From: Cenococcum geophilum 1.58
Lineage: Eukaryota; Ascomycota; Dothideomycetes; Gloniales; Gloniaceae
Assembly (NCBI GenBank): GCA_001692895.1
Contig: KV748199.1
Span: 248,001 to 312,000, forward strand
Reading direction: 5' to 3'
DNA length: 64,000 nucleotides
Below are positions 1 through 63,470 of this stretch, piece by piece. The notes under the pieces were generated by a model. It worked only from the letters and a program-made list of their open reading frames with translations, was not told the origin of the DNA and did not search any database. Positions within the stretch are counted from its first letter, which is position 1. Every line of letters starts with the position of its first letter. A program made the translations under genes and the position numbers.

Positions 1-3000
1 TTATAAGTCTATTAGCGATTATCTCCTTTATTACTGTCTATTAAAATTATACTTATCTTATTGCGTATTCCTAACATAGCTAGTATTAATAGATGTTAAC
101 GTGTTAGAGCTTTATAATTAGCTTTACCGTATTTTCTATAATTAGTTAGAGCGTCTAGGTATTATCGCATTTAATAATTAAGGGCTCGTTTAGCCTTAAT
201 ATTATTACTTTAAATAGCCTACTAATAAAGATAGCTTCCTTTACTGTCTATAATAGGGCTAATAACTTAGCTTCTATGCTTAACGTCGTAACCATACCCT
301 ACTTGTTTGCTCTTCATGCGATTAGTCCTCTAAATAGCTTTATAATATATCCTTATAAGCTCTTTCTATTAACGGAGTTGTTTGCGAATAATGCATTGCT
401 GGTATAGATAAATAATTGCGCTTCGCTTTTACTGTCTCTTTTATTATCTCGTCCTTTATTATATATTTCTTTATCTCTCCCTCTACTATTTATTCCTTCC
501 TTATCTCCTCTATAGCAGATTGCTTTGCTTCTCGTGCTATATAGGTACTAGATAACTCTATCTACCGCTTAATAATGCTCTTAGCTTAGGTTCTAATTAA
601 ACCTTACTAGCTATTATACTGCGAAGGTAATATCCGGACGCGTTATAGTAGCTATATAGAGTACTAAACCCAATTTTCTTTAATATAGCATTGTAGAGGC
701 TAGTAGGGATATAGGACGGACTAATAGGTCTATATTAGGGGATAGACGCGTTAGACGGATTATACGGTAATTAGTAGGAAGGAGTTCCGATTCTGCCATA
801 GGAGTATCTAGAAGACGCCCTCTAAGATCTATCTTATACTAGTTAGCTATCTTTTTAATATAGGCTTCCTAGGATAGCCATAGGAGCTTCTAGCTATAAT
901 TATGTAGCATATAGATTCCTAGGAACTATTTTAGCTCGCTAAGGGTACTTATCTAGTATTCCTTACTTAGCTCCTTAATTGCTTCTTAAGCTTTCTTCTT
1001 ATCTATCTTTTAGTAGTAGAAGACAATATCGTTAACATAGAAGAAGACGACTATTCTACCTTTTAGCATAATATATGGCTCCTAAGGTACCTCTTTAAAA
1101 CCCAATTCGTTTAACGAGCTCGTGAGGTTCTTCTACTATAATAGTGGTAATCGTTATAGTCCGTATAGGGCTTTTCTTAAGCGCAGTACTTTGTCTGTTT
1201 TTCTTTTATTAAACCCTAGCGGTAGCTTTATATAGACGACCTTATTAAGATCGCAATGGATAAACGTATTGACTACATCTATCTGTGTCGTCTCTAGGTT
1301 AAATTTCGCGGTAATCGCCACAAGGGTTTAGAAGGTCGTACTAGCTAATATAATAGCTCTTATAGGTAGGTCTCCTGGGGCCTATTAATTTCCGCAGACT
1401 ACTAAGCGTGCCTTACATTTCTGGAGAAACCCGTGCTTGTTTATCTTGTAGACAAACACCTATATTAAGCTAAGGACCTACTATTCCTTTACGTGCTTCT
1501 TATCTGTTTCTTAAAACGACTTTATTTAATAATAAGATTAGAGGTAGACTTATTAAGCTTTTTAGAACTAATCTTAAAGAGGATACGTATTAAGGTTGTG
1601 GATTAACTAAGGTGGCGGAGGTAAGTTCTTCCTATATAATCTGACATCGCGTATTCTGCCTAATTTTAGCTTACTATCGTTAAGTTGACTATTAAGGTTA
1701 AACTTCCGTCCTGTTAAGAAGGCGCCGTAATAGGCTAAAGTGATCCTTTTAGTAATAAAGTCTTTAAACCTATTATTATAGGCTTCCTTAAATAAGTCTT
1801 TAACCAAGTTGTTAAATACCCCCTAAGTGTTAAACCCGTCTCCTTTTTGTTGGATAATGTCCTAATTTGGTATATCTAATCTTATAGGGTACTTAACGTA
1901 GAAGGCGTATAGAGATTCTTTATCTTCTTCTGTTAGAGGTGGCGTACGATATATATCTTTAAGAGCTCTTGCTAGGTTAAGATCTGCTAACTTATTAAAG
2001 GTTTAAACTGGTTTATTTTTAATGTCATCGTCTTCCTCTTAAATTAACGGTTTAAATATTTCTTTATTATCTTCTAAAAGAACCTTATTCTTAGTTAGGG
2101 TATTAGGGAGTTAAATCTTCTTAATTAATATATCTAATTTAGCGTGTAGGTCCTTTAAGATATCCGTTTACTTGCCGTTAAAGAACGTCTTTTTATTAAA
2201 GATAATGTCCCTTATAGAGATAACAATACCTTTATATAGGATCTAGATCCTATAGATATTGGTAGAGTTATAGCTAACAAGGTAGCCAATATAGGCTCGC
2301 GGATCTAGCTTGCTTAGCCTTTTCTTCTTTAGCTAGGCGTCCGACGTTATTACATACACTCTATAGCCGTAGGCTTTTAGGTGCGCTAGTTACGGCTTTC
2401 TTAATCTCCTATTAGCTAGGAAGGTATAGAACCTCTTATATAACGATTTCCAACTAAAGCTTTCCCGTGGCGTTCGATCTCAAAGGTAGACTATATAGTT
2501 AACTATCTTGTTTTATAGGTCGTGTGGTAAATTAGCAGCAATTCTTATTATACGTGCTCTCTTAATAATTATACCCCCTAAGCGTTTGGCGGTACTATTC
2601 TATACTTAGGTATATAGCGCCAAAGGCTTAAATATAATCCCTTACGTCCGTAGCTATTTAAGGGTTCTCCTTCTCCCTAGCTCGTTGTCTAATCTAATAG
2701 TGTTAACTTTAAGGTTATACCTTAGATGAATCCATTAGATAAAATCTTTAAGTACTTATAGTGTCTCCTTCTCCTTACTATGCGTTATTATAAAATACGG
2801 GAAGGATCTTCCTAAGAAGGTGTTGTGGATAAGCATAACTCGTATAAATCCAGTATGTGCTTTCTTAAGGTTAGTCTAGTTAATATAAAGGTTAAGATAG
2901 GGTTTATTAATTTTTTATTTTAAGAACCTTCTTAAGACCTAACGCTTAATTTTGGCGAGACTGCAATATTAATATTCCGTTATCTTTAGGCCTTAAAGCT

Positions 3001-5164
3001 TAACTCCTAGGGCGTTAAGACCTAAATAATAAAGGCTTATAGGTCCTGGATAACCTAGACGCAGATACTATAGGCGTGTATTACCTTTTAAATCTAGATA
3101 AACATCTCTTAATAATATCCGCTTTCGTTAACGGCGCGTTAAACGGTTAATATTAAATATAGATTTTAAGTTTCCTAATTAAACGTATTTAATAGTTTGT
3201 TATCTATAACGTTCTTCTATTTAATATAGGATTATATTATTCTTTTAAACTAGAAGATTATTATCTCCTTTATTATCCTAGTAGTACCCTTATTTTTAAA
3301 GTAGACGGAATAACATTAGATTTATATTAAAGTCCATATAAAAGGCAGCGTCCTTAAGACGTAGGTTTCTCTTACTCTTGTCTAGTTTTATAACTTAGAC
3401 GGTGATATTGCCGTAGCCTAGTATAGGCACTTCTAAGCTACTGGCGATAACGTATTTATATCTTAGAGCTTTCCTAAAGTTATAGAAATAAGAAAGGTTA
3501 TTAAAGATATAGAGAGTGGTTCCTAAGTTAAGAATAGTTAATAGCTTTAGTAGATAGAGTTAACTGGTGTAATATAATTCTAGGAATATCGCATTAGCTT
3601 CTCCCTTAATCTTAACTATCTCCTAGCTCTTGTCCTATTATTATTAAGCCTTATCTTTCTATTCTTTAAGTCTGATCTTCGCAACTTAGTTAGTAAGATT
3701 TTTATTCTTTTCTACCTTCTTTAGTGCCCTTTTAATGCGAGCATCTCCTATTATAACTCCTATAGGTCTCTTATCTTTAAATAAACACTAATAGTCCTTA
3801 AGGGAGTGACCTCGTATTCCGCACGCTAAGCACTTAGGCGTTAGCTTCTTATAGGACGTCTCCTTATTTACTAGTGTCCTGGCTCTCTTTAAGCGTCTAT
3901 TATATACTAAGGCTCTTCCTCTTTATAAACCTTTAGTAGTATTAGAGTAATTCTTAATAGCTTACTCTACGAAGTCTGCATTAAAGGTACTCCCCCTTAT
4001 AGTAGTATTAGCTTTCTTTAAGGGTCTTATAAGTCCTTTTTATAGCTCCTTTACTACTCTATAGTATTCGGAAGATCTTAACTTCTAAGGGTTATTTAAC
4101 TCGGTAGTGTACTTTATATAGTAGGTGTCGCTAAAAGGTTAAATAACGTCTGCTAAATTTTGAAGCTAGATTCCTTCTAATATTTAAGGGATCTTATACT
4201 TCTCTTTTAGTACTATTACGTGTTCCCATTAATCTAGCCATTAGTTTAATTTTAATAACTATTTAAACCCCTTAAGAGCTTCTATATACTAGTGTTATAC
4301 CTTCTTTCTAATAAACAATAAGGTAGGTTTAGTGTTCTCCTTTAGTTAAGATAGCTATTCTTTAACTGTTAAGAAAGGGTTAAGCAGTAGCTTCTTCTAA
4401 ATTAATACTATGGACGTGATCTAGGTGCGTATCTATTGCAGATGCTCTTCCTATTTTAGGAAGTACTTTATATCTTAGTTATAGTATCGTCTACTATTCT
4501 CGTACGCCCTCTGTTAATTTATCGAGAGCTATATATATAAGGTTGCATTCTTATTAAAATCTATAACTTCTAGATAGGCTGGTTCTTATAGTAGACCTTA
4601 TTAAGGTACTATATTGTCTAGGTTAATATAGGCCCAAATTTATTTGTCTATAAGGGCTTATAGTTGCTAGATCTATTACTCCCAGTCTTCTGGCTTATTA
4701 AGGATGATTGTGGTAGACGACCTCAACCTTAGTGGAGTTATTTAACTAATAGGCAGATGGGAATTAAGATGGATTTTGTCGTTAGGATTGTCCTATAATA
4801 ATTAAGGTGGAATCTTGTAGAATCTTATGGAATCTCGTCCTGTGACAATTAAGGTAGGATTTCTGTCAGAGTCTGCGTCCTAAGATGATAAGGACGATAA
4901 GGTGTTAGAGTCTGACGATAAGGTAAAATCTCTTTAAATAATTGAGTATTAGCTGAATAGCTTCTTGGGTTGGCGGACTGGGCTTATAACTGTCACGTAA
5001 CTCGTATTGAGCTGTTCATTGATGAAATGGGTTGATTTATTAATGATCTTGTCTTGAGGTTGATTGATGTTGGACCTAGGGCCCTCGGGCTTAGATGAAG
5101 AGGTTTACAATGCACGTGACTCGTGCACGTGACTCGTGCACGGTCTACGCCTCTAGAGAATACA
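1..5164 (-). mobile_element. Copia-C: Ty1/Copia LTR element, partial, broken
   Basis: A minus-strand Ty1/Copia element. Its 5' LTR lies at the right end and its 3' end runs off the left edge. Read on the minus strand the order is gag (about 4770 down to 3600, with a zinc-knuckle-like CxxC and GH pattern near 3815), integrase (about 2960-2150), integrase-RT linker (about 1807-1607, ending in a run of prolines), reverse transcriptase (about 1700-700, with the Copia YVxDI-type motif near 1030-1055) and the start of RNase H (below about 600). gag-IN-RT-RH is the Copia order. The frames are heavily degraded by many in-frame stops, in a RIP-like TA-rich composition. It is a fossil, not a working gene. 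It lies inside a Gypsy fragment that resumes at 5165. Confidence 0.88.
4991..5164 (-). repeat. 5' LTR of Copia-C
   Basis: A 174-bp LTR. On the minus strand it starts TGTATTC and ends GTGACA, so it has the expected TG...CA ends. The next minus-strand bases, GTTATAAGCCC, match the bases after the 5' LTR of Copia-B, which fixes the inner edge as a shared primer-binding-type site. It contains a tandem duplication of a 13-bp unit near 5111-5140. The second LTR would lie left of the window, so the outer edge at 5164 rests on the TG end and on the Gypsy sequence resuming just beyond. Confidence 0.72.
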
Positions 5165-18639: not shown

Positions 18640-20150
18640 AAAGAAGTTATAAAAGAGGTAAAGGATAATTCCACTATAGAATAGGGAACATTAGTAGGGA
18701 TTAAGACCCCACTAGATATAATGTCTATCGCTTTATAAAACGTAAGAGAAGTAGGACAGCAAACTACTTCGGCACTTAATAAAGGTAAAAGGCTACAGGC
18801 TTAAGACTCTTAAGATAAGATAAGAGACGCTTATAATTCCTAAGATGGGATAAGATAAGCTTAAGGACCTATAATAGATAACAACTAATAGAGTAAAGTA
18901 ATAGCTTAGTTCAGCGATATATAAATAAGCTTCGGATAAAGTTTCCTAAAGGTATAATATTCTTAAAACGAGATAAGTAAGATTTAAGACTCTTAAAATA
19001 AGATAAGAATACTATAGAAGCTTAGTTAGACTAAGGCTAGAGCTAAGCTTAAGAAAGAAGCAAGCTTAGGATTAAGATTTCTATAAAACTAAGATTTCTA
19101 AATATAAATAAGGACTATTAAATAAACTAAGATTAAGAAGTAAAAAGACTTTAAGGATTTACTTATAAGGCAAAAACCAAAAGAAAATATAGAGGAATTT
19201 AGACAGAGAATCCTTATATAATAAGAACAGAAACTAAACTAGAGATTTAGTATAATAGGTTATATAAGGGATAGAGCACCTATATAAAAATTACTAATAG
19301 GCTTAGGGCAGGCACGCTAAGAGCTAAGTAGCTTACTAAACTAGAAGATAAGGAGGGTCTAGGAATCCCTACTAGGTTTAAGGAACGATATATAAAGGGC
19401 TGTTACAATATAGTAATAAGAAGATACTTCCTTATGTATAAGCTGTATATACTTTAATAGCTATACTAAAAGTGGTATAGATAACGATATAATGATAAGT
19501 AGGAAGATTTTTATATATAGTTGGATAAGCAAATTATCTAAAACTACCCTATTATAAAAAAGGCCATAACTTATATTAAGGGAGCCTTAATTATAACGTT
19601 AAAGGATTTAGAGAAATAATTAGAGGACTAGAGAAGTAAGAGACGCATTTCAGTACCTATAAATAAAGTTATAATGTTTAGATTAATACGGTAAAGGTTT
19701 AAACTTAAGGATAAAGATAAGTCTAGAGTTAACCTAAAGCACCTAGTATACTATACGCTATTATAGATTGTATGCGTGGATAATATATATAAAATGCATA
19801 AGAATTTAAAAGAGAAGAATTGGAAGTACCCTATAAGGATATATTAGGCGCTAAATAAGTAATAGTATAGAAATGCTAAGTATATATACGGCTAGTATCT
19901 AGTAAAAGTTTAGAAATTAGGAAACTTAATACTTTAACTAAAAAGATTCCTTATAGAAGAATACTTAAATAGATAATAGTGGTAGGAATGCTTAGAGAAT
20001 ATATATCTATAGTATATGGAGGATAAAAAGCAAACTAAGTATTGGCTAAAGAACGAGCTAAGTATATAGGGATTAAGTAGCTAATAGTTAGGAAAAGTAG
20101 AGGCCTATAAAACTAGAGGGAGCTAGTAGTAAAGCCTTAGACCCTTAAAG
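18640..20150 (+). other. Long coding-like spacer between gag zinc knuckle and protease in G1
   Basis: About 1.5 kb lie between the gag zinc knuckle and the protease, where most Gypsy elements have little. The first part (18800-19000) repeats a word like CTCTTAAGATAAGATAAG, which reads as a repeated Asp-Ser-x-Asp-x-Ile-Arg-type peptide. The second part (19140-20100) is charged and Gln/Lys-rich. An equivalent stretch occurs in G3 copy 1 (28650-30180) and, split by the DNA transposon, in G3 copy 2 (54280-55158 and 60136-60780). I recognise no domain. Confidence 0.55.
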
Positions 20151-20189
20151 GAATTTAAGGATAATACCTAAATTTATAAGTTAATTAGT

Positions 20190-22516
20190 AAGATTAATAG
20201 TTTAAAGTATTAATAGATAGTAGAGCAATGCAAAACTATATCTTACTAGTAGTAGTTAAAAGAATAGGATTACCTTATAGATAGAAGGAATAACCTTACC
20301 TATTAGTTATAATTTTAGGAAATCTAATAACCTATAGAGGAGGGATTATTAACCTTAAAATAGGACCTATTTAGATAACTATTAAAGGGAGATAAATTAA
20401 GATATCTTTTAATATCCTACCATTAGGACGGGATAAGGTAGTATTAGGTATACCTTAGTTATAAAAATACAATCTAAAAATTAATTGGATTATAGGCTAG
20501 ATTAATATTAGGGATACTTAATAACGCAAAACGCGATAACAGACTAAGTTAGTATAGTATTAAGTTGGAGTAATATATAAGGAGACTAAGCAAGGCTTAA
20601 GTTATATACTAAAGAGATACTATAAGTATAGCAAGAAACTATGGAGCCTAGAAAGTAAAAAGCTAGCAAATTATATAGTATAGGACTATAAAATAGAGTT
20701 AAAACTAGAAATAAGTCTAAAGTTCTTTCTAACCTATAAGCTTACCTAAGAGGAGTTAAGAGCACTTAAAGAGTTTATCTAAGAGAACTTATAAAAGGGA
20801 TATATTAGACTATTATAGTTATTAGCAGATTATCTAGTATTATTTATACTAAAGAAGAATAGAAAACTTAGGTTATGCATTAACTATAAATAGTTAAATA
20901 GCATTACTTAGAAGGAGAGGTATCCTTTACCCTTAATTAGCGAGATTTAAGATAGGATAGGTAATATATAAATCTTTATAAAGATAGATCTAAGATAGGC
21001 ATACCATTAGATTAGAATTAAGGAAGGCAATAAATAAAAGGCAGCCTTTAGGTTAAAGGAGGGACTATATAAACTATTAGTTATACAATTTAGATTAATA
21101 AATATACTAGTAACATTTTAGAAATAAATTAATAGTATATTAGGAGAATACCTTAATAAGTTTATTATAGTATACCTTAACAATATTATTATCTACTTAA
21201 TAACTAAGGAAGAATATAGAGAATATATTAAATAGGTTTTAAAGAGACTAAGAAGAATAGATGCTAGTAATAATTAAGAAATATAAGTTCTTTATAAGGA
21301 AGACTAATTTTATTAAATTTATTATTAAATTAAGATATATTAATATAGACCTAAAGAAGATTAAAGCTATAGTAACTTAGTAAGAACTAGAGAATATAAC
21401 GTAGTTAAGGTTATTTTTAGAGTTTTGCAACTACTATAGGAGGTTTATAGTATAGTGGTTAAAGAATATTAAACTATTTACCAGACTTATAAAGAAAAAG
21501 GAATTATAGGTATAAGGAGATAAGTAAAGGAAGCTATTTAAGGAACTTAAGGAGTTATTTACCTAGAAGCTAAACTTAAGATCTATTAATTAGGACTAGA
21601 TACGGTTATAAAAATAAATATATTAAACTTTATACTAGGAGTATACTTATTATAGAAGTATAGGAATACATAGCATCTAGTAGCATATTATAGTTAAAAG
21701 ATAACACTATTAGAGTTAAACTATAACATCTATAATAAGGAGTTGTTAAGTATATTTATAGTATTAAAGAAATAGAGAGCATTCTTATAAGGCGTAGAAA
21801 AACTATTTATAGTTAAGATGGATTATAAGAACCTAATAGGGTTTCTAATAATAAAAGAACTTAATTAGAGATAGGTTATATAGGTAGAGATACTTACGGA
21901 ATACTATTTTAAGATTTTGTATACTAAAGGGACTAAAAATATAAGAGTAAACGCACTTAGTAGAAAAGCTAAACTATAGAATAATAAGAAACTATTAAAA
22001 GCAATACTACACAGAGACGAGGATAGATTAATTAGGTATAATTACCTTAAAATAGTAGCAACTTAAAAGGATAGAGAACTAGAAAGGGTTTATAAGACAC
22101 TAGAGAGCTTTTAGGTATAAAGAATTCTAGAAATATAGCTAGAAGATCTATAAATGGATATATATAAGAATTAAAAAGCAAAGTGTATCCTAAAAAGTAT
22201 AGCAAAGTATTTTATAGAAGATTTCTATAAGGGAATAACTTAGGGGCATAATAGAGCAATAGGCTTAGTGTTAAGACTTTAAAAAGAATATATTATTAAT
22301 AGAATCTAGGATATAGTTAAAAAAGTAATAAAGGAGTATCTAGATTGTTAAAGGAATAAATTAATAAGATATAAGCCTTATAGAGGGCTATAACCTATTA
22401 AAATACTAAAGAGACTATAGGAGGTTATATTATAGTACTTTATTATTAAGTTACTAAAATTAAAAGATCCTATTACTAAATAGGAGCATAACGCGATCTT
22501 AGTAATAGTAGATAAG
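20190..22516 (+). pseudogene. pol of G1, first part: protease, RT, RNase H, integrase start
   Basis: A retropepsin-like region at 20190-20480, RT at 20750-21600 (with the YL..IIIY motif near 21170-21200), RNase H to about 22000 and the integrase zinc-binding region to 22516. It is interrupted by Copia-A2 at the target ATAAG (22512-22516, repeated at 45837-45841). It is fossil, with many stops. In the family, pol makes the cDNA and integrates it. Confidence 0.82.
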
Positions 22517-28376: not shown

Positions 28377-30678
28377 TAATATACGGATAATAATTAGCAA
28401 TAATAATAATAGAGTTGGAGTACTTATTAATTAATAGCAATAAGGATAGTAAAGGAACTAACTAGGGGTATCTAAACCTTAATAACGTAATAAAAGTAGA
28501 GACTAAGACCGCTATAGAGCAAGGTTTAGTAATGGGTATTATAACACCGTTAAATATGGTATCTATTGCTTTATAAGACAGAAGGAGTAATATCTAGAGA
28601 TAATTAAGTAAGCAGATAACTGCTAGTACTAGCTTACCACTTAATAAAGGCAAAAGGCTAAAGGCTTAAGATTCTTAAGACGAGATAAGAGATAACTAAG
28701 ATTTTTAAGAAGAAATAAGGTATGCTTAAGGACCTATAATAGACGTAAACCGATAGAGTAGGGTAGTAGCTTAGTTTAAGAATATATAAATAAGCTTAGG
28801 ATAAGTGTTCCTAACGGTATAAGATTCTTAAGATAAAATAAGTAAAATTTAAGACTCTTAAGATGAGATAAGAATACTAGTAAAGCCTAGTTGGACTAAG
28901 GCTAGAGCGTAGCTTAAGAAAGAGGCAAGCTTAGGATTAAAAAATCTAAGGGGTTAAGAGTTTAGAGTATAAATAAGGATACCTATAAGTAAAAAGCAAG
29001 CGGCTTTGCTATAGATTAAAGAATCTATAATATAAATAGCAGTTAAATTAGGAGATAGATATATAGACCTAGAGGACTTACTAGTTAAATAAGATGTTTA
29101 GACTAAAGATTGAAAGTTTAATACTAAGATTAAGAAGTAAGAAGACTTTAAGGATTTACTTATAAGATGTATAAAAAAAAAGAAACTATAGAGGAATTTA
29201 GAGTAAGAATTACCTTATAGCAAGAATAGAAACTAAATAAAAGATTTAGTATATTAGAACGTATAAAGGACAGAGTACTAGTATAAAGGATTACTAATAG
29301 GCTAAGAGTAGGCATACTAGGAGCTAAGTAGTTTACTAAACTGGAATAAGAAGAGGATCTAGGGATTCCTACTAGGTTTAAAAAACGATATATAAAAGGC
29401 TGTTATAACGTAGTAATAAGAAGATACTTCCTTACGAATAGACCGTATATACTTTAACAGCTATATTAAAAGTGGTATAGGCAACGACATAATAATAAGT
29501 AGAAAGATTTCTATATATAGTTAGATAAAAAAGTTATCTAAGACCACCTAATTATGGAAAAAGCAATAAATTATATTAAGGGAGCCTTAATTATAATATT
29601 AAAGGATTTAGAGGAATAATTAGAGGACTAAAGAAGCAAAAGGCGCGTCTTAGTACCTGCGAATAAAGTTATAACGTTTAGATTAGTATAATAGAGGTTT
29701 AAACTTAAAGATAAAGACGAGTTAAGAGTTAACTTAAAGTACCTAGTATACTATACGCTATTATAGGTTATATGCGTAGATAATATATATAAAATATATA
29801 AGAATCCAAAGAAAAAGAACTAGAAATACCCTATAAGGATATACTAGATAATAGAAGAATAATAGTATAAGAATGCTAAGTATATACACGGATAGCATCT
29901 AGTAGAAGTCTAAGAGGAAGGAAGTTTAATATTTTAACCAGGAAGATTCCTTATAGAAGAATGCTTAGATAAATAATAATAGTAGGAATATCTAGAGAAC
30001 ACCTATTTATAGTATATTAAAGATAAAAAGCGAACTAGGCATTAGCTAAAGAATAAGCTAAGTATAATAGGATTAAGTAGCTAATAGTTAGGAAAAGTAA
30101 AGGCCTATAGGACTAGAGGGAGCTAGTAGTAGAGCCTTAGACCCTTAAAGGAATTTAAAGATAATACCTAAATCTAAGAATTAAATGGCAAGATTAGTAG
30201 TTTAAAGTATTAGTAGATAGTAGAGTAATAAGGAACTATATCTTACTAGTAGTAGTTAAAAGGATAGGGCTACTATATAGGTAAAAAGAGCACCCTTATC
30301 TATTAGTATTGATTTTAGGAGATTTAATAGCCTATAGAGGAGGTATTATTAATCTTAAAATAGGACTAATTTAGATAACCATTAAAGGGAGATAAGTTAA
30401 GATATCTTTTAATATATTACTATTAGGGAATAATAAGGCAGTATTAAGAATGCCTTAGTTATAGGAATATAATCTAAAGATTAATTAGGTTATAGGTTAG
30501 GTTAATATTAAAGATATATAATAACGTAAGATATAATAATAAACTAAGTTAGTATAATATTAAGTTGGAGCGATATATAAGGAAACTAATTAAGGATTAA
30601 GTTATATACTAAAGAGAGACTATAAATATAGTAAAAAGTTATAGTTACTAAAAAGTAAAAAGCTATTAGAGTATATAG

Positions 30679-52655: not shown

Positions 52656-55150
52656 TAATTACTACCATAGTTACAGTTTTAAGAAGTTAAATAATATGCT
52701 ACCAAAAGCAGCCACTATAACGCCGTTAACGGCAGTAACTACTTTAAGGTTAAATGGAGATATAAGTATATAAGATACTAACTTATAACTAGTTACGGTT
52801 AGGCAGTTATAGGAAATTATTAATAGGTTAAATAAGAATAACTAAATACTTAAAGAAAGACTTAATGGGATTGGAGTAGTAAAGGTTAAGTTACCTTTAA
52901 TTAAACAATTTTTAGGGAAGAGATTAAAGCTTAAAGGATTCTTAACGTAAATGCATTTTAAAGTTATGTAAGAAGGGGCTAAGTTAGCTATAATAATAGA
53001 TTAAATAGCCTATATAGGACTATTCTTATTAGGAAGGGCACTTAAATAGTTTAAACCCTATTTAATGGAAATATAGACTAACGGAATAACTACTACTAAT
53101 TAAGAGGTATAATTTGTATTTTTTAGCTAGGTAGGATTTACGGAATGATTAATATAGATATTTAGGGACTAGAAGCAATAACTATAATAGAGAGAAAGCT
53201 TTAGGACCTAATATAGCGAACTTTAGTAATTAAGTATACGATATAGTTTTAAATACTTACTATATAGGTTAAATAGAATAATAAGGCGCTTATGGCATAG
53301 TATAAATAGGGACTTAAGGCTAAAGTCTAGGACGTAATTATTTTAATAGAAGATACGAACACCCTAAGGGAATTAATAGATTAAGTAATAAAGATTAATA
53401 ATAGGATCTTTTAAAGGGAATAGGCTAAAAGAGGCTAGGATAGAGTTTTATAGTTATATAAGACGTAAAGCATATAATAACTAAAGCTAAGTTAAAAACT
53501 ATAGTATAGCGCAGAGCTAATAGACCTAAGTAGTACTAGAGAAACCTATAAGAGATAGAGTAAGAAACTATAGAAACCTAGAGGTTAAGGATTAAGTAAC
53601 TATAGAACTAAGGAGCATAGGCTAAACCAAGGATCTTAGTAGTAGAAGATATTTAAGCGGACTCTATAATAAAAGTAATGGTTTAAAGATAGAGCTTATA
53701 TAAATTATAGAAAATAGGGTTATTTCGCTAAAGACTATAGAAGTGGTTAGAGTTATTACATAATAAAAGGAACTAGATTAATAGTATATAATATATACGT
53801 ATAGAGGGATAATAGTATACTATAAGGAATAAAAGAATATTTAATTAGAAGTTTTACGTTTTATTATAATAACGCATACCAAATTTATAAAGATGCTAAG
53901 TATAGTGTAAGCTATTAGCTATAAAAGCCAGAGTTAAGAAAATTTAAAGGAACTAAAGAGTTAGATAAAGAACAAGATTGACTCTATAAGCTAGATTAAG
54001 ATATTATAGTAACATACGGATAATAATTAGCAATAATAATAATAGAGTTAAAGTACTTATTAATTAATAGCGGTAAGAACAGTAAAGAAACTAACTAGGG
54101 GTATTTAAACCTTAATAACGTAATAGAAGTAGAGACTGAGACCGCTATAGAGTAAGGTTTAGTAATAGGTATTATAACACCGTTAGATACGGCATCTATT
54201 GCTTTATAAGACGGAAGAAGTAATATTTAAAGACGATTAAGTAAGCAGACGACTACTAGTGCTAGCTTACCACTTAATAAAGGTAAAAGGCTAAAGGCTT
54301 AAGATTCTTAAGACGAGATAAGAGATAACTAAGATTCTTAAGATAAGATAAGGTAAGCTTAAGGACCTATAACGGACGCGAACCAATAGAGCAGAGTAAT
54401 AGCTTAGTTTAAGAATATATAAATAAGCTTAGGATAAGTGTTCCTAATAGTATAAGATTTTTAAAATAAGATAAGTAAGATCTAGGACTCTTAAGACAAG
54501 ATAAAAACACTAGCAAAGCCTAGTTAGACTAAGGCTAGAGCTAAGCTTAAGCTAAAAGTAAGCTTAGGATTAAAGAATCTAAGGAATTAAGAATTTGGAG
54601 TATAAATTAGGACACCTACAAGTAAAAGGCAAGGGGCTTCTTTATAGATTAGAGAATCTGCAATATAAATAGTAGTTAGATTAGGAGATAGATATATAGA
54701 CCTAGAGGACTTACCAGTTAAACAAGATATTTAGACTAAAGATTAAAAAATTAACACAGTAATTAAGAAGTAAGAGAACTTTAAGGATTTAATTATAAGA
54801 CGCAAATAATAAGAAACTATGGAATAGTTTAGAGCAAGAATTATTACATAGTAAGAAAAGAAACTAGATATAAGATTTAGTATATTAGGACGTATAAAGA
54901 ATAGAGCACTAGTACAAAGAATTACTAATAGGCTAAGAATAGGTATACTAAGAGTTAAGTAGCTTACCGAACTGGAAAATAAAGAGGATCTAGGGATTCC
55001 TACTAGGTTCGAAGAACGATATATAAAAGGCTATTATAACGCAGTAATAAGAAGATACTTCCTTACGGATAGACCGTGTATACTCTAATAGCTGTACTAA
55101 AAGTGGTATAGGCAACGATATAATAATAAGTGGGAAGATTTCTATATATG

Positions 55151-55159
55151 GTTAGACGA
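55151..55159. repeat. 9-bp target-site duplication, left copy
   Basis: GTTAGACGA, repeated at 60127-60135. The homologous site in G3 copy 1 (about 29520-29530, GTTAGATAAAAAAG) has it once, so it was made by the insertion. Confidence 0.88.
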
Positions 55160-55171
55160 TTACCTTAGAAG

Positions 55172-55261
55172 CTCAGACCAAGAAATCGATTGTGCGGATA
55201 TAGGAATATCCGCACCGTCCACTAAGCTGATTTAGGACGGCAATCGTTTTCTTGGTCTAAG
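55172..55261. repeat. Left foldback (three-way junction type)
   Basis: An outer stem pairs 55172-55192 with 55241-55261 (19 of 21 bases). Inside it are a perfect 10-bp hairpin (55192-55201 with 55206-55215, loop AGGA) and a smaller stem (55215-55220 with 55235-55240). Such a layout could extrude as a cruciform or fold as single-stranded DNA. Confidence 0.82.
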
Positions 55262-55543
55262 GGACTTTGGCGAGATTTATCCCTTGGTCTGGCAAGAATT
55301 CAAGGACTTTTCGTATATGCACGCCTCATAAGCCAATCTAGAGGCTCTATACTGTATAGAGCTTGGTGTTAAAGCCTCTAGTCAGTGCGATTGCTCAGCA
55401 GCAAGGGTGCTAGCGCCTCATTAACGCTTAGATATTGCGGTGAACAGCAGCGACGTAGCCAGGAAGCCTATAATATTTGGTGTAGTTAATCAAAAAGCTT
55501 TTAATATTGTCGCCGTCTATTTAATCATTGAAATATCGTCCTT

Positions 55544-57781
55544 ATGCCACCCAAAAAACGTTGTGCGTCTTCGGCTCCGAAGCCTCTAAAGCCTCCAAAA
55601 GCACCTTAAGCCTGGGAGTCCTATTTACAATCCTTTCAAGCGACGCAGTATACACACAATAGCTTATCGGTAGTAGCTACGCAGCAGACAGTAGAGGTTT
55701 GGCCAAGCAGCCAGACAGAGGATATTAAGGACGAATTAGGAGCCGTTTTTGAGGCCCGCGGGGAGACTGCTAAGGATGAGGCAGATGAGGTAGATAAGAC
55801 TAAACTACCAGAGCTATTAGCTAAAGAAGTTATAAGAATGGGCCTTCCTACTGTTCCTACTTCATGGGAGCCTCTGGCCGCTGTTCCTAAACTAGATCTT
55901 AAAGTTATTAACCTTCTAGATGAGTTAATATTCGCCGCTTGGCGTGCTAGTAAGCCTATTAGTGGCGTTGATGCAGATATTAAATCTGATGACCTTCCTA
56001 ATCAAAATGAGGATAGTGAGCGCTCCGCGTACTGTACGCTAGTAGATTAGGTTAGTTTAACGTCTAGCGGGTATAGATCTGGATAGGACCTGCCGATTCG
56101 AGTATTTCTACTATTCTTTAGTATCAGTGTATTTGAGAAGCTCGCGATTAATACAAACCTATATGCAGCCTCTCAAAACGCTAGCGGATATCACCAATTA
56201 GGACGACATGCGGGTAAACGATTACAAGCGTGGAAGGAGACCTCTGCTGGCGAATTAATGATTTGGGTAGGGCTTATTATCTATATAGGCGTCTTTAAAG
56301 GCACTCAGGTGCCAGATCTTTGGGCCGTAGATCCTGAATATCCTAGACACTTAATCAGCTTATTTATAGGCCTAAAAAGATAGGAGTAACTCAAGCGCTT
56401 CTTCTATATCTCACCACCTCCACTAAAGGGCGTTAAACGTCAGGTCTTTAAGAAAATTAAGCCGTTAACAACTCCTTTGGGCGAGGCGTTTAGAAAGTAC
56501 ATTATACCTAGATCTATAGTTAGCTTTAATAAGATAATAGTAAGGTTTACTAGATAATCTACGGCTATAATTAAATTGCCTAGTAAGCCAATACCAGAGG
56601 GCTTTAAAATAATGAGCCTTTATTAGTATAGATATTGCTATAGCTTCATATTTACCTCACCTGGCTGCTTTTTTAGGCTTCCTTTTTAAACAGATTATTA
56701 AGATATTGTTCTCTTAAATACCTCTAAGTGCGTCCTCTACCTTTCCTAACAGCTTCCTCTTTAGGCTCGTTAATTTTGCCTATTTTTAGATAACTACTTT
56801 ACGAATATTCCGTTGCTCCAGGTGCTTCGACAACTCAGAATTGCTATAGCTGGCACGGCTCGATTAAACTTAAAGGACTATCCGGAGGTGCATAAAAGGG
56901 CTAATAAAAGGAAGGAAAGGCTACCGTTTAACTTCATTACAGGAGTAGTTGTTGGCGTAGTTAATTCGGTGCTTTTAATCATATAGCAGGACAAGAATTT
57001 GGTACGGTTTTTAATAATAGCTTACTTATGTAGTGATAAGGACGTTAATAAAGTTAATCGGCGTCAGCCGCGGGTATATAATTCCTTCCTTAAGAAGCTG
57101 GTAGCTAACGTTTAGGGCAACAACCTAATTAAGAAGTTAACGCTTCCTAGGGTCTCTATCGACTATAATAACTGAATAGGCGGCGTTAATATTCATAATT
57201 AGCTTCGGAGCTATTATACCACCTAGATTACTACTATACGCACTTAGCTGCCCTTATTCTTCTAGGCGCTTAATGCGGCTATAATTAACGCCTATATTAT
57301 TAGTAAGAAGATCTTCTAGATGTTAAGGAGGCCCTTCCTCCAAACCCACCGCCGTTTCCGTATACAACTAGTATAGAACCTCGTTATTATGGGCAGTCGG
57401 CAGATGGGCCTAAATAAGTATAATACTGAGTGTCTTCTTTGTTAAAGCTTACCAAAATCTAGGCAATATCAATCTGGGCAATATTAATCTGGCATTGGGC
57501 CTGGTTATAGAAATATTAAAACGAATCAAAAAACTACCTACGTCACCGCTAAAACCCCACTACCTGCAATTTGACGGTGTAAGACGCGAACTCATTGTTC
57601 TATTAAAAGCTTTACAAGGAAGCAAGGCTATAAGACTCTACCAAAGTGCTAGATGTGTAGATGGAAGGAGGCAAAAAAGCTTATAATAAAGGTTAGGCAA
57701 ACGGTATATGAATATGAGACCTGCAGGCTTCCTCTATGCCTTCGGTGCTTTGACAACTTTCATTTAATAGGCGACGACTAG
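55544..57781 (+). pseudogene. PiggyBac-type transposase (DDE_Tnp_1_7 family) pseudogene
   Basis: A cut-and-paste transposase of the PiggyBac family. From the ATG at 55544 to the TAG at 57779 one frame of about 745 codons can be followed, with about 25 in-frame TAA/TAG/TGA stops and no frameshift that I noticed. Landmarks: a Pro/Lys-rich start; acidic residues about 60-95; W-K-E..A-G-E-L-M-I-W-V-G-L-I-I-Y-I-G at about 235-255; P-E-G-F-K at about 350; D-N-Y-F-T at about 415-420, carrying a catalytic Asp; D-Y-N-N..G-G-V-N at about 540-550; a C-terminal Cys-rich end (T-C-R-L-P-L-C-L-R-C-F..F-H) typical of PiggyBac zinc-binding tails. The first catalytic Asp position (near 56525) reads Asn and GGVD reads GGVN, both G-to-A changes expected of RIP. 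Confidence 0.85.
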
Positions 57782-57808
57782 GTAACTATTTTGGGTTCTT
57801 ACGCCTCT

Positions 57809-58139
57809 AATATTGAGACTCTAAAGCTAATTAAGCCTTTGCTATAGCCTCCTTCTTAGCCTCCTTTAAGCCCTCCTCTACTGCCTTTAATCGATCCTCT
57901 AGATCAAATAGCCGCTGGTTAAACCGTTCAACCACTTATAGTATTTAATACACCTCATTTAACGTATACAGCACGTCCTCCTTTATAACCTTAAGCTGGT
58001 CCTTTACTAGCTTATTCTCATTAACGTTAGGAACGCGTATAAAGCGGATAGGTGGTAGTAATTCGGGGGAGGACTCTGGAGGATTTTCCTATATAATTAG
58101 CAGCTGGTTAATGGAGGAAGGGCAGAGACCTACTGTCAT
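57809..58139 (-). pseudogene. Small opposite-strand ORF, coiled-coil-like, in the PiggyBac element
   Basis: From an ATG at 58139 the minus strand reads about 110 codons with four or five stop codons, converging on the transposase end 28 bp away. The last third reads R-L-F-D-L-E-D-R-L-K-A-V-E-E-G-L-K-E-A-K, a strong heptad pattern for a coiled coil. The Pro/Glu-rich first third looks disordered. No family recognised. It may be an accessory protein carried by the transposon. The interruptions are RIP-like, as in the transposase. Confidence 0.5.
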
Positions 58140-58401
58140 AACGTTATATATCACGGCTTTTTGCCCAACTTCCTCAAATAAAAATTATGTATAGGTGTTT
58201 TTAGTGGTGGCCTTCTACAGCATTTCATCGGTATCGCAATATTGACGCGTTTTGGTGAGGCTTGCTAAGAAAATCACGCTAGCTAGGGTGCCTGCAGCAT
58301 GCTAACCCAGGCAGGAGCGCCAAAAGCGCCCAATACGAAAAGTCACATTTGCCAGACGAAGGGATAGAAAACCTAAACACCGTTTATATGAGAAGACCTC
58401 A

Positions 58402-59868
58402 TTAACTTTAACAAAATTAATATACTTATTAACATAAAAATTACACCAAATTATAGAGAAAAGCCTACTCTATAAGTTATGAGATCTTTAGCTCCTTATA
58501 CACGCACGATGTTAAGAGGAGTTCGTTGCCGCAGAGGCTCCAATTCTACTGCCCTGCTGAGGCGCGTAGTAAACACGCTTACGCCTACGCCACCAGCCCT
58601 CTTCGCCAACTAGTGGGTATTCCATCTGCTATATACCTATTTAATTTATTTACTTACAGCCCTTTATAGGTTATAGTGTAGGCCCTAATAGAGTTATAAG
58701 CTCCCCGCGTCTGTGTTAGAGCTGTAGAGCTTTGCGAGAGCTCTACAGAACGAAGCTTAGGGGGAGACCTGCACGGAGCTCTGCACGGAGCTCTACTAAG
58801 GCTCTGCGGAGGCTCTGCACGAAGCTCTGTACGAAGCTCTGTAAAAGCTCTGCTCGAAGCTCTGCTCGAAGCTCTGCTTGAAGCTGCTTGAAGCTCTGCT
58901 CGAGGCTCTGCTCGAGGCTCTACTCGAGGCTCTGCTCAAAGCTCTACTCGAGGCTCTGCTCGAAGCCCTATATAGAGCTCCAAAGCTCTACTAACACGCA
59001 GCACTATATACTAGGAAGGTTCTATTAATCGCTCGTATGAACGCCCGTATGAACGCCCATACAATCGTCTCTACAAACGTCTCTGCAATTGATCGCCCGT
59101 ACGAACGTCTACACGTCTACACATCTGCACATCTACAGGTCTGCACGCCCGTACGAACGTCTGCACGTCTGCACGTCTGCACATCTGCAGGTCTGCACGC
59201 CTGCACGTGGCTCTGCACGAAGCTTTGCATTAAGCTCTGCACGAAGCTCTGCATTAAGCTCTGCACGAAGCTCTGCTCAAAGCTCTGCTCGAAGCTCTGC
59301 TCGAAGCTCTGCTCGAAGCTCTGCTCGGAAGCTCTGCTCAAAGCTCTGCTCAAAGCTCTGCTCAAAGCTCGAAGCTCTACCCGAAGCTCTGCCCGAAGCT
59401 CTGCCCGAAGCCCTATATAGGAGCCCAAAGCTCTACTAACACGCAGCACTAATATACTAGTATACTAGGAAGGTTCTACAATCGCCCGTACAAACGCCCG
59501 TACGAACGCCTATACAATCGTCTCTACAAACGTCTCTGCAATTGATCGCCCGTACGAACGTCTGCACATCTGCCACATCTACACGTCTGCACGCCTGCAC
59601 GAAGGTCTGCACGAAGGTCTGCACGAAGGGTCTACTAAGGCTCTGCACGAGGCTCTGCGCGAGGCTCTGCCCAAAGCTTACCCCTAGTAGTAGCAGATGT
59701 TTTTAAGAAAGGGCCTAACTATAACACCTACTAGGTGTTGTAATAGCTTTAAGTAGTAGATATCTACATATCTATATAGTTTTATTAATATCAGCAGACT
59801 ATTTAATAAGATAAATACATTCTTAGGTTTTTAATAACGCGTTTTTTAACTTTGACGAAATTGATGTC
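58402..59868 (+). repeat. Diverged direct repeat bracketing the minisatellite block
   Basis: TTAACTTTAACAAAATTAATAT at 58402-58423 recurs as TTAACTTTGACGAAATTGATGT at 59846-59867, with weaker similarity for about 50 bp after each. The differences are transitions. The two copies bracket the minisatellite block, so this block may be a segmental insertion or an old duplication inside the transposon. Confidence 0.55.
58730..59690. repeat. Minisatellite block (12-bp GCTCTGCTCGAA family)
   Basis: Tandem 12-bp units related to GCTCTGCTCGAA occupy 58733-58990, 59205-59425 and 59600-59680. Between them, two copies of a roughly 150-bp block (58975-59120 and 59415-59565) carry CGCCCGTACGAACG and CGTCTCTGCAATTGATCG words, followed by CGTCTGCACATCTGCAG-type repeats. 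The higher-order period is about 440 bp. Because the units lack stops in several frames, ORFs of up to 127 codons appear on both strands. They are most likely artefacts. Confidence 0.85.
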
Positions 59869-60028
59869 AGGACTAAGCAATAGTTGTATTATAAAATTTA
59901 TACCATTTAGAAGCCCTAAGTCTTAAAAATAATGTATAAACTTTTGGTAATAATAACGCGTTGTATAAATAAATAAATTAGATATCCGTAATCTCCGTTT
60001 TACGGATTTTGTTTAGGATTTTAACAAA
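59700..60028. other. AT-rich right arm of the DNA transposon
   Basis: No gene seen. It contains AACGCGTT twice (near 59836-59843 and 59956-59963). Confidence 0.6.
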
Positions 60029-60042
60029 ACTCGCCAAAGCCT

Positions 60043-60113
60043 CTTAGACGTGATTTTGCAATTCGGAAGACGGCGTAGGTTATTCCAACGCTAGCTAAAA
60101 AATCACGTCTAAG
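60043..60113. repeat. Right foldback
   Basis: A perfect 15-bp outer stem (60043-60057 with 60099-60113, CTTAGACGTGATTTT) encloses a 7-bp inner stem (60073-60079 with 60085-60091, one mismatch). It mirrors the layout of the left end, with different stem sequence. Confidence 0.82.
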
Positions 60114-60126
60114 CTCGCTGAGGTAA

Positions 60127-60135
60127 GTTAGACGA
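60127..60135. repeat. 9-bp target-site duplication, right copy
   Basis: GTTAGACGA, partner of 55151-55159. G3 resumes here. Confidence 0.88.
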
Positions 60136-60779
60136 AAAAGTTATCTAAGACTACCTAATTACGGAAAAAGCAATAAATTATATTAAGGGAGCCTTAATTA
60201 TAATATTAAACGATTTAGAGGAATAATTAGAGGACTAAAGAAGTAAAAGGCGCGTCTTAGTACCTGCGAATAAAGTTATAATATTTAGATTAGTGTAATA
60301 GAGGTTTAAACTTAAAGATAAAGATAAGTTAAGAGTTAACCTAAAGCACCTAGCACACTATACGCTATTATGGATTGTATATATAGATAATATATATAAG
60401 ATACATAAGAATCTAAAGGAAAAGAATTGGAAATACCCTATAAGGATATACTAGATAATAGATAAATAATAGTATAGGAATGCTAAGTATATACACGGCT
60501 GGTATCCAGTAGAAGTTTAAGAGGAAGGAAATTTAATACTTTAACCAGGAAGATTCCTTATAGAAGAATGCTTAGATAAATAATAATGGTGGGAATATCT
60601 AGAGAATACCTATCTATAGTATATTAAAGACAAAAAGCAAACTAAGTATTAGTTAAAGAATAAGCTAAATATAATAGGATTAAGCAGCTAATAGTTAGGA
60701 AAAGTGGAGGCCTATAGAACTAGAGGGAGCTAGTAGTAGAGCCTTAAACCCTTAAAGGAATTTAAGAACGACACCTAAA

Positions 60780-63470
60780 CCTAAGAGTTAAATAGTAAGA
60801 TTAGTAGTTTAAAGCATTAGTAGATAGTGGAGTAACGAGGAACTATATTTTACTAGCAGTAGTTAAAAGGATAGGGCTACTATATAGGTAAAAAGAGCAC
60901 CCTTATTTACTAGTAATAATTTTAGGAGATCCAATAGCCTATAGAGGAGGTATTATTAATCTTAAAATAGGACTAATTTAGATAACTATTAAAGGAAGAT
61001 AAATTAAGATATCTTTTAATATATTACTATTAGGGAATAATAAGGCAGTATTAGGAATACCTTAGTTATAGGAATATAATCTAAAGATTAATTAGGTTAT
61101 AGGTTAGGTCGATATTAAAAATATATAATAATATAAGACGCGATAATAAGCTAAGATAGTATGGTACTAAGTTAGAGCGATATATAAAGAGACTAAGTAA
61201 GGCTTAAGTTATATACCAAAGAGATACTATAAGTATAGTAAGAAGCTATAGTTACTAGAAAGTAAAAAGCTATTAGAGTATATAGTATAGGACTATAAGA
61301 TAGAGTTAGAACTAGGAATAAGTTTAAGGTTCTTTCTAACCTATAAGCTTACTAAAGAAGAAGGGAGAGCACTAAAAGAGTTTATCTAGGAGAATTTTTA
61401 AAAGGGATATATCAAACTATTATAGTTATTAATAGGATATCTAGTACTATTCGTACCAAAGAAGAATAGAAAACTTAGGCTATGTATTAACTATAGATAG
61501 TTAAATAGTATTACTAGGAAGGATAGGTATCCTTTACCCTTAATTAGCGAAATTTAAGATAGGATTAGTAACGCGTAAATCTTTATAAAGATAGATCTAA
61601 GATAGGCGTACTATTAGATTAGGATTAAGGAAGGCAATAAATAGAAGGCAGCCTTTAGGTTAAAGGAAGGACTATATAAACTATTAATTATATAATTCGG
61701 GCTTATAAACGCACTAGTAATATTTTAGAAGCGTATTAATAATGTATTAAGAGAACACTTAGATGAATTTGTTATAGTATACCTTAACGATATTATTATC
61801 TACTTAATAAGTAAAGAAGAATATAGAGAATATATTAAATAGGTCTTAAAGAGACTATAAGAGAAATAGATGCTAGTAGTAATTAAAAAATGCGAGTTCT
61901 TTACTAGGAAGATAGATTTTGTTAGATTTATTATTAAACTAGGCTAACTTAGTATAGATNTAAAGAAGATTAGGGCTATAGTAAATTAGTAAGAACTAAA
62001 AAATATAATACAGTTAAGGTTATTTCTAGGGTTCTGTAATTACTGTAGAAGGTTTATAGCTTAATAGTTAAAGGATATTAAGCCACTTATAAGATTAATA
62101 AAGAAAGAAGAACTATAGGCATAGGGAGAGGAATAAAAGGAACTATTTAAGAAAATTAAATAGTTGTTTACCTAGGAGCTAGTTCTTAAGATATATTAAC
62201 TATAGTTAGAGATAGTAGTTAAAATAGATATATTAGATTATATACTAGGAGCGTACTTTCTATAAAAATATAAGGATAGATAGCACCTAGTAGCATACTA
62301 TAGTTAAAAGATAATACCACTAGAACTAAACTATAACATCTATAATAAGGAGTTATTAGGTATAGTTACAGTATTAAAGGAATAGAGATTATTCTTATAA
62401 GGTATAGAAAAACTATTTATAGTTAAAACGGATTATAAGAACCTAACGGGGTTCCTAATAATAAAAGAACTTAATTATAAATAAGTTAGATAGGTAGAGA
62501 TGCTTATAGAATACTATTTTAAGATTTAGTATACTAAGGGTATAGAGAATACATGAGTAGATACTCTAAGTAGAAAAGCTAAACTATAAAACGATAAAAA
62601 GCTATTAGGGGCTTTATTGCGAAAAGATATAGATAGATTAATTAGGTATAATTATCTAAAGATTATAATAATATAAGAAGAAGAACAGATCTATAAATTA
62701 CTAGAGAGTAATTAGATATAAAAGATCCTAGATATATAAATAGAGGATCTAGACTTAAAGTAGTATAAAAATTAAAAAGTAATATACGTGCCAAGATCTA
62801 TTGTAAAGGAGTTTATTAAATTATTTTATAAAGGACTAACTTAAGGATATAACGGAGCTATAGGCTTAGTGTTAAGACTTTAAGAGGAATATATTATTAA
62901 TAGAATCTAGGGACTAGCTAGATAAGTTATAAAAGAATATCTAAATTACTAAAGGAATAAACTGATAAGGTATAAGCTATATAGAGNGCTATAACTAGTT
63001 AAAATACTAGAGAGACTATAGGAGGTTATATTATAGGACTTTATTATTAAGTTATTAAAGTTAAGAGATCCTATTACCGGATAAGATTATAANGCAATCT
63101 TAGTAATAGTAGATAAGCTTATAAAGTAGGGATACTTTATAGCATATTTAAAAGAAATATTAGTAGAAGATGTCGCTAGAATCTATATTAAAGAAGTATT
63201 TATAAGATATAAAGCACTAAGCAAAATTATATTAGATAGAGATTTAAGATTTATAGCAGTATTCTAGGAAGTGTTTTTAGTAGAGTAAAGAGTTTAAGCA
63301 GTAACTTTTACCGTATATTATCTATAGACAGACGGTTAAACGGAAAGATTAAATTAGATATTAAAATAGTATCTAAGGTATTATATTAATTATATATAGA
63401 ATAATTAGGTATCGCTATTACTAGTTATATAGTTTATATATAATATAACACTATAAGAAGGAATAGGTAT
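60780..63470 (+). pseudogene. pol of G3 copy 2: protease, RT, RNase H, integrase part, fossil
   Basis: A retropepsin-like region near 60800-61120, RT near 61380-62150 (YL.DIIIY-type block near 61775-61805), RNase H near 62200-62590, the integrase zinc-binding region near 62800-62960 and core from about 63050. It parallels 36094-38300 closely. It is truncated by the LTR at 63471. Many breaks. Confidence 0.85.

Follow-up and report, generated by a model that had tools for sequence, protein, structure and literature searches.

Nested transposons at a Cenococcum geophilum locus: a piggyBac-related unit between AT dinucleotides inside a shell with a 9-bp target duplication

Can a PiggyBac-type transposase move an element that duplicates 9 bp of its target instead of TTAA? 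The question is raised by a 64,000-nucleotide stretch of Cenococcum geophilum 1.58 (contig KV748199.1, positions 248,001 to 312,000; hereafter the window), which holds a 4967-bp element at 55160–60126 with a PiggyBac-type transposase gene inside it and a 9-bp duplication around it. A preliminary description of the window took this to be a PiggyBac transposase acting in a 9-bp-duplicating element, and offered two explanations: a branch that has diverged and changed its target, or a shell resembling Mutator-like elements (MULEs) that captured or was invaded by a PiggyBac gene. We followed the element through the 177.19-Mb assembly (162 contigs) and found that it is two nested transposons, not one. 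The features concerned are as follows, in window coordinates and all on the + strand.

28518–30524: sister repeat with the unoccupied site, junction at 29520 (from self-matches of the window)
55151–55159: left copy of the 9-bp target duplication of the outer element, GTTAGACGA (single-copy at the sister site)
55160–55280: left end of the outer shell, TTACCTTAGAAGCTCAGACC..., with a subterminal inverted repeat, broken at the AT of 55279–55280 (other shells match it and resume near 58364)
55279–55280: left AT flank of the inner unit, read beside its inverted end
55281–58363: inner piggyBac-related unit, 3083 bp, with ends CCCTTGGTCTGGCAAG... and ...TTGCCAGACGAAGGG (paired ends of the same sequence occur elsewhere, with a spacing of about 3.0 kb or about 590 bp)
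56093–57295: remnant of a PF13843 (DDE_Tnp_1_7) transposase gene with 16 in-frame stops (G000:C24:304093-305295, E 1.6e-31)
58364–58365: right AT flank of the inner unit, the second copy of the 2-bp repeat, read beside its inverted end
58366–60126: remainder of the outer shell, ending ...GTCTAAGCTCGCTGAGGTAA (matches other shells)
58768–59678: GCTCTGC/GAAGCTCTG-type repeated sequence within the shell (self-matches; also in other shells)
60127–60135: right copy of the 9-bp target duplication of the outer element, GTTAGACGA, a perfect match to the left copy

The outer boundaries are as the preliminary description gave them. The element starts TTACCTTAG and finishes GAGGTAA, so that the TTACCT read at 55160 is mirrored by AGGTAA at 60126, and GTTAGACGA stands on both sides. 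Its flanks of about 1 kb match the sister repeat at 28518–29525 (86.9%) and 29520–30524 (91.9%), where the site near 29520 is a single GTTAGATAA. This agrees with GTTAGACGA at 7 of 9 letters, and both mismatches are C-to-T/G-to-A changes of the type left by repeat-induced point mutation (RIP). The base composition of the window (GC 0.32, TA/AT 1.66) is RIP-like as well.

Overlooked at that stage was an internal set of terminal repeats, the second in the element, at 55281 and 58363. When 11 other shells were compared with the window element, similarity ran from the left end to element position 94–121 and resumed at 3204–3208, skipping the inner unit; the block skipped corresponds to 55281–58363 and is bounded by CCCTTGGTCTGGCAA... 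and ...TTGCCAGACGAAGGG. Among the 41 matches listed for the left end, 30 loci were read, and 28 of these continue through the junction, the two filled ones being the window and C3. The uninterrupted junction reads GATTT[A/G]T[A/G]G in the 28 loci, 17 with AT and 11 with GT; for the unit of the window, these shells represent the unoccupied site. Conversely, the unit is found outside a shell at C57 (locus L070) and, judged by flanks, at further loci. Searches with each inner-unit end gave 40 matches apiece, the window included, and the spacing of paired ends is about 3.0 kb, about 590 bp in short forms, or greater, as at C31b and C1.

Because a shell family exists without the gene and the unit recurs alone, the piggyBac transposase is not the maker of the 9-bp duplication. 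The headline of the preliminary description, a PiggyBac transposase working in a 9-bp-duplicating element, is thereby withdrawn: shell and gene belong to separate elements. Wide occurrence of the shell without the gene, which that description had itself listed as speaking against its headline, is what the 28 of 30 left-end loci show. Its second explanation, invasion of a 9-bp-duplicating shell by PiggyBac, fits both these loci and the solo units; the invasion stands, and the MULE label attached to it goes by the length of the duplication, with no MULE of matching ends among three loci read.

The shell itself is a numerous family. DNA searches with each shell end listed at least 41 matches, from 311 and 360 first-look candidates, and an exact 20-base pattern for the right-type end and a variant occurred 222 and 213 times (0 in the reversed control). 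Perfect 9-bp duplications flank 11 of 14 shell pairs at the fetched loci, with one further pair at 8/9 and two with neither; the pair at L048, judged by eye, agrees at 7/9. Five additional pairs comprise three with perfect 9-bp duplications and two without, which gives 14 perfect duplications and one 8/9 over 19 paired shells. The pairs span 0.8–4.3 kb, and those compared contain the GCTCTGC-type repeats.

A duplication of 9 bp lies within the 9–11 bp of MULE targets, and its length suggests a MULE-type enzyme as the mover of the shell. The PF10551 profile has 79 matches in the genome, of which three loci (L108–L110) were read, two picked for zero stops and one for a shell end 3 kb away. Among the three no MULE with TTACCTCAG ends was found: no convincing pair of ends was found at L108, L110 has a right end and no left end was found, and L109 is a MULE locus whose ends (GAGTGCAC...) differ from the TTACCTCAG of the shell. 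The likeness to non-autonomous MULE-type elements lies in the 9-bp duplication, which L109 shares. Long pairs (L111–L113) were fetched as candidate autonomous shells, and the open frames of L111 were repeat-like in an open-frame check made without a family search.

The inner gene belongs to the PiggyBac family, as the preliminary description had proposed: a PF13843 profile search matches it at E 1.6e-31 over model positions 2–349. With 16 in-frame stops (1 TGA, 9 TAG, 6 TAA), it is dead. Homology was examined on a relative, L004, an intact-looking single frame of 701 residues (PF13843 match E 3.2e-51). Its protein aligns with Trichoplusia ni PiggyBac (6x67) at E 2.4e-20 and with piggyBat (9c0f) at E 4.8e-18; its three catalytic Asp align with the DDD residues of PiggyBac, and its residues 521–685 align with piggyBat 407–572 through the Cys-rich tail. 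The first catalytic Asp is Asn in 8 of 11 aligned rows (L001, L002, L003, L005, L069–L071 and the window). Many copies are thus dead, and RIP damage could be the cause of the change.

What flanks the unit is not TTAA. The preliminary description had looked to an inner TTAA-flanked unit as a sign against its headline; the unit sits between AT and AT. Among 18 inner units whose flanks were sought, AT stands on the left in all 17 that were reached (at C33 the stretch stopped short) and on the right in 17 of 18. A table of 24 copies was drawn up from 16 of these (all but C13, which is broken on the right, and C33), six loci of other PF13843 types, L070 and the window. In all 24 the flush repeat is exactly 2 bp, with no longer repeat; AT is preceded by T in 22 copies and followed by A in 21, and joining the flanks gives TATA in 19.

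The same flanks recur independently at other types of PF13843 element. Inverted ends are present at six of seven loci (L001–L004, L006, L008), in five different sequences and flanked by TAT and ATA; they are perfect over 16 bp from the flanking AT, and from CCC they have at most two mismatches in 16. The window copy and L004 are only about 28% identical, yet both types use AT. Genome-wide listings of ends, made with patterns that left the two flanking letters free and excluded T as the third flanking base, gave AT in 95 of 100 ends of family 1 (first 100 of 156 matches; reversed control 3), in 97 of 100 ends of family 2 (first 100 of 226, read by eye; reversed control 0) and in all 50 listed ends of family 3 (reversed control 0). 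Three of the five exceptions in family 1 are apparently chance matches by inner sequence, and the others, C7 and C26, are real units with one changed base. No pair of inverted ends with TTAA flanks came to light in the window element or at nine PF13843 loci. The AT-in-TATA habit is thus common to the inverted-end piggyBac-type families measured in this genome. A changed target, the first explanation of the preliminary description, is therefore also borne out, in a form it did not foresee.

Empty sites hold a single AT. When the flanks of L006 are joined via one AT, they align without a gap to window 61388–61187 (202 bp, 89%), and also across the junction to window 20781–20582, window 36196–36087 and L021. 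Joined flanks of C31b align to L024 over 41 bp, again gapless across the junction. Those of C3 match the window at 36255 with 74% identity, one AT and no gap at the junction, and two more C3 relatives have GC or GT at the site. A gapless junction with one AT is likewise seen for C5 against window 18071–18030, where the left side comprises only five bases. One AT also stands at the junctions of C60, C20 and C22, with gaps elsewhere in the alignment.

Since the 4-bp TTAA target duplication that marks the piggyBac superfamily is not what the inner unit has, we classify it as a piggyBac-related element and not as a classical TTAA piggyBac. We are highly confident that the locus consists of nested transposons, a 9-bp-duplicating shell and an AT-repeating piggyBac-related unit at TATA. 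A shell with no recognised gene and with TTACCTCAG-type ends entered the repeat and duplicated 9 bp, as the duplication and the empty site show. The 3083-bp unit, with its own PF13843 transposase gene, entered a TATA inside the shell, giving TAT/CCC...GGG/ATA where the empty site holds one AT; flanks and empty sites show this. We infer that the strand transfers are staggered by 2 bp within the self-complementary TATA, as against the 4-bp stagger over TTAA in classical piggyBac. Both elements later decayed, probably through RIP; between copies, transitions are far more numerous than transversions.

The change of stagger may go with changes in the enzyme. In T. ni PiggyBac, according to PMC7351741, the omega-loop residues R275, Y283 and K290 make contact with the hairpin and the region around it; Y283 stacks against a base of the target, and N440 makes contact with a base. 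Numbered by hand on alignments, the position of R275 holds T or M, that of Y283 N or K and that of K290 P throughout the 11 fungal rows, with K at the Y283 position in the clade of the window and N in the remaining rows. Y439 and N440 are kept in the nine of nine rows that reach them, and piggyBat keeps R, Y and K in its omega loop. The 2-bp stagger would accompany the replacement of those residues by which T. ni PiggyBac holds hairpin and target.

Several observations weigh against this interpretation. The AT flank was itself used for placing the ends in the 24-copy table, so that its independent points are the absence of a longer repeat and the one AT at empty sites. The C20 and C3b copies in it share flanks and count as one event. 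Inverted ends were not found at two of the PF13843 loci examined, L005 and L071, and the loci examined are a minority of the 117 PF13843 matches in the genome. Departures from the pattern occur: C26 has AG before CCC, the right AT is missing at C13, and L120, L128 and L129 read GT after GGG, with AT on the other side at L120 and L128 and, at L129, no left end found. L128 and L129 are two of the three exceptions in the family 2 listing. The third, an end of the CCCTTAACCCGCC family, is preceded by TTAA, and its other end is unrecognisable; whether it is a true TTAA insertion we cannot say.

G000:C10:763960-764760, locus positions 25–29: TTAA-preceded end, L130

The link to the omega-loop changes, furthermore, is correlative, drawn from a comparison of fungal-type copies with two TTAA enzymes. 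Finally, a blunt insertion of TCCC...GGGA at TA/TA would give identical filled and empty sequences at AT targets.

That last reading, in which TCCC...GGGA enters between the TA and TA of TATA with no duplication at all, we regard as quite unlikely. The near-fixed A outside AT, in 99 of 100 listed ends of family 2 and 49 of 50 of family 3 with T excluded by the patterns, would suit a TA/TA target as well. The GGG/GT ends of L120, L128 and L129, however, vary at a base which on this reading would belong to the element itself, and for this reason lean towards a 2-bp duplication. Staggered gaps are also what DDE transposases normally leave. A different doubt concerns the two filled shells, which could hold a single insertion that moved together with its shell as a composite: the junction is the same in the window and at C3, the outer left flank differs, and the right end of the C3 shell was not found in the stretch fetched. 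Against this, the window unit differs from the C3 unit by 40 transversions in 1710 sites and from another unit, at C4, by 8 in 1717. A tree of six units, all damaged and with that of C3 cut short, groups the window and C4 units with support 0.994 (0.997 in an earlier tree with the C3 tail untrimmed, 0.995 with purine/pyrimidine coding). As the window unit is nearer the C4 unit than the C3 unit, the sequences suggest two separate insertions at the same AT/TATA, and a shared composite origin appears unlikely.

The remaining rivals carry far less weight. A single divergent PiggyBac that makes 9-bp duplications, the short shells being its deletion derivatives, would account for the perfect 9-bp duplications around the whole window element. 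It is very improbable, for the supposedly deleted block is bounded exactly by inverted ends of its own, with an AT next to each, recurs without the shell, and is of different descent in the two filled shells, and the other PF13843 types measured are AT-flanked. That the AT pattern is a RIP artefact on TTAA sites is more improbable still, to the point of being negligible. The window is RIP-like, with its low GC and raised TA/AT, but C-to-T and G-to-A changes cannot make TATA from TTAA or shorten a 4-bp repeat; L004 and L008, with ordinary indices, have the same flanks, and the empty sites show one AT. We therefore retain the nesting of an AT-repeating unit in a 9-bp shell.

How does this unit compare with known systems? 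T. ni piggyBac (6x67/6x68) and piggyBat (9c0f) share with the fungal elements a DDD transposase, a Cys-rich C-terminal tail and a self-complementary A/T tetranucleotide target. The ends of T. ni piggyBac begin CCC, as do those of the inner unit, and piggyBat inserts at TTAA with a 4-bp duplication. T. ni piggyBac, too, duplicates the 4 bp of TTAA (PMC7351741), in contrast to the 2-bp AT in TATA found here, where R275, Y283 and K290 are replaced. PiggyMac, a domesticated PiggyBac of Paramecium, is described in PMC3408717 as making cuts that are staggered by 4 bp and centred on TA. It resembles the fungal units in being a PiggyBac relative that does not need TTAA and has a 2-bp core; it differs in that its cuts are 4-bp staggered excisions of other sequences and in not being a transposon. 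For microsporidian piggyBacs, terminal repeats were not detected according to PMC4202319.

The closest parallel is Ti-tr1 of the Tuber indicum MAT locus, reported in PMC3864998 as a piggyBac-like PF13843 transposase for which TTAA was not found and the duplication was TA; its classification is left unclear there by its authors. Like the inner unit, it joins an ascomycete PF13843 transposase to terminal inverted repeats without TTAA. Compared by description only, it differs in being one element with 52-bp repeats read as flanked by TA, whereas in the present genome there are several families of ends, with many members, as well as empty sites, and the reading is AT within TATA. Re-read as TAT/CCC...GGG/ATA, Ti-tr1 could have the same habit. 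That paper was the only one found to report a non-TTAA duplication in a PiggyBac-like transposon, in a literature search that had most subscription journals outside its scope. We think it somewhat more likely than not that an entire branch of fungal PiggyBac transposases, to which Ti-tr1 would belong, has gone from a stagger of 4 to one of 2 bp and from TTAA to TATA. If so, the TTAA hallmark and the 4-bp offset attributed to the dimer would not be universal. DDD-core relatives that repeat only AT in TATA offer natural sequence contrasts for studying what determines target and stagger, and fungal members may be missed or misclassified by searches that rely on TTAA. A look for relatives in viral contigs gave 42 pattern matches, none of which was confirmed.

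Some further features were seen along the way. At L120 and L128 (and, on one side only, L129) the AT/GT flanks could go back to a TGTA target in which one side later underwent a G-to-A change. The unit at G000:C20:1611078-1614186 and the unit at G000:C3:4400252 (L090/L091, L104/L105) have near-identical flanks on both sides, like copies of one occupied site. At L109 (G000:C20:1312900-1319500), long inverted ends, GAGTGCACTTATAATACC..., bound locus positions 1431–4450 with the PF10551 match between them, and the target duplication is 9 bp, CTATATACA. Shells L111–L115 and the window at 58768–59678 carry long GCTCTGC/GAAGCTCTG-type arrays, some in both orientations. The PF13843 element L006 sits in sequence related to the neighbouring repeat at 61187–61388. 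One long repeat is present in the window in three diverged copies, at 18773–20524, at 28518–30524 and, split by the element, at 54151–55159 and 60127–61135.

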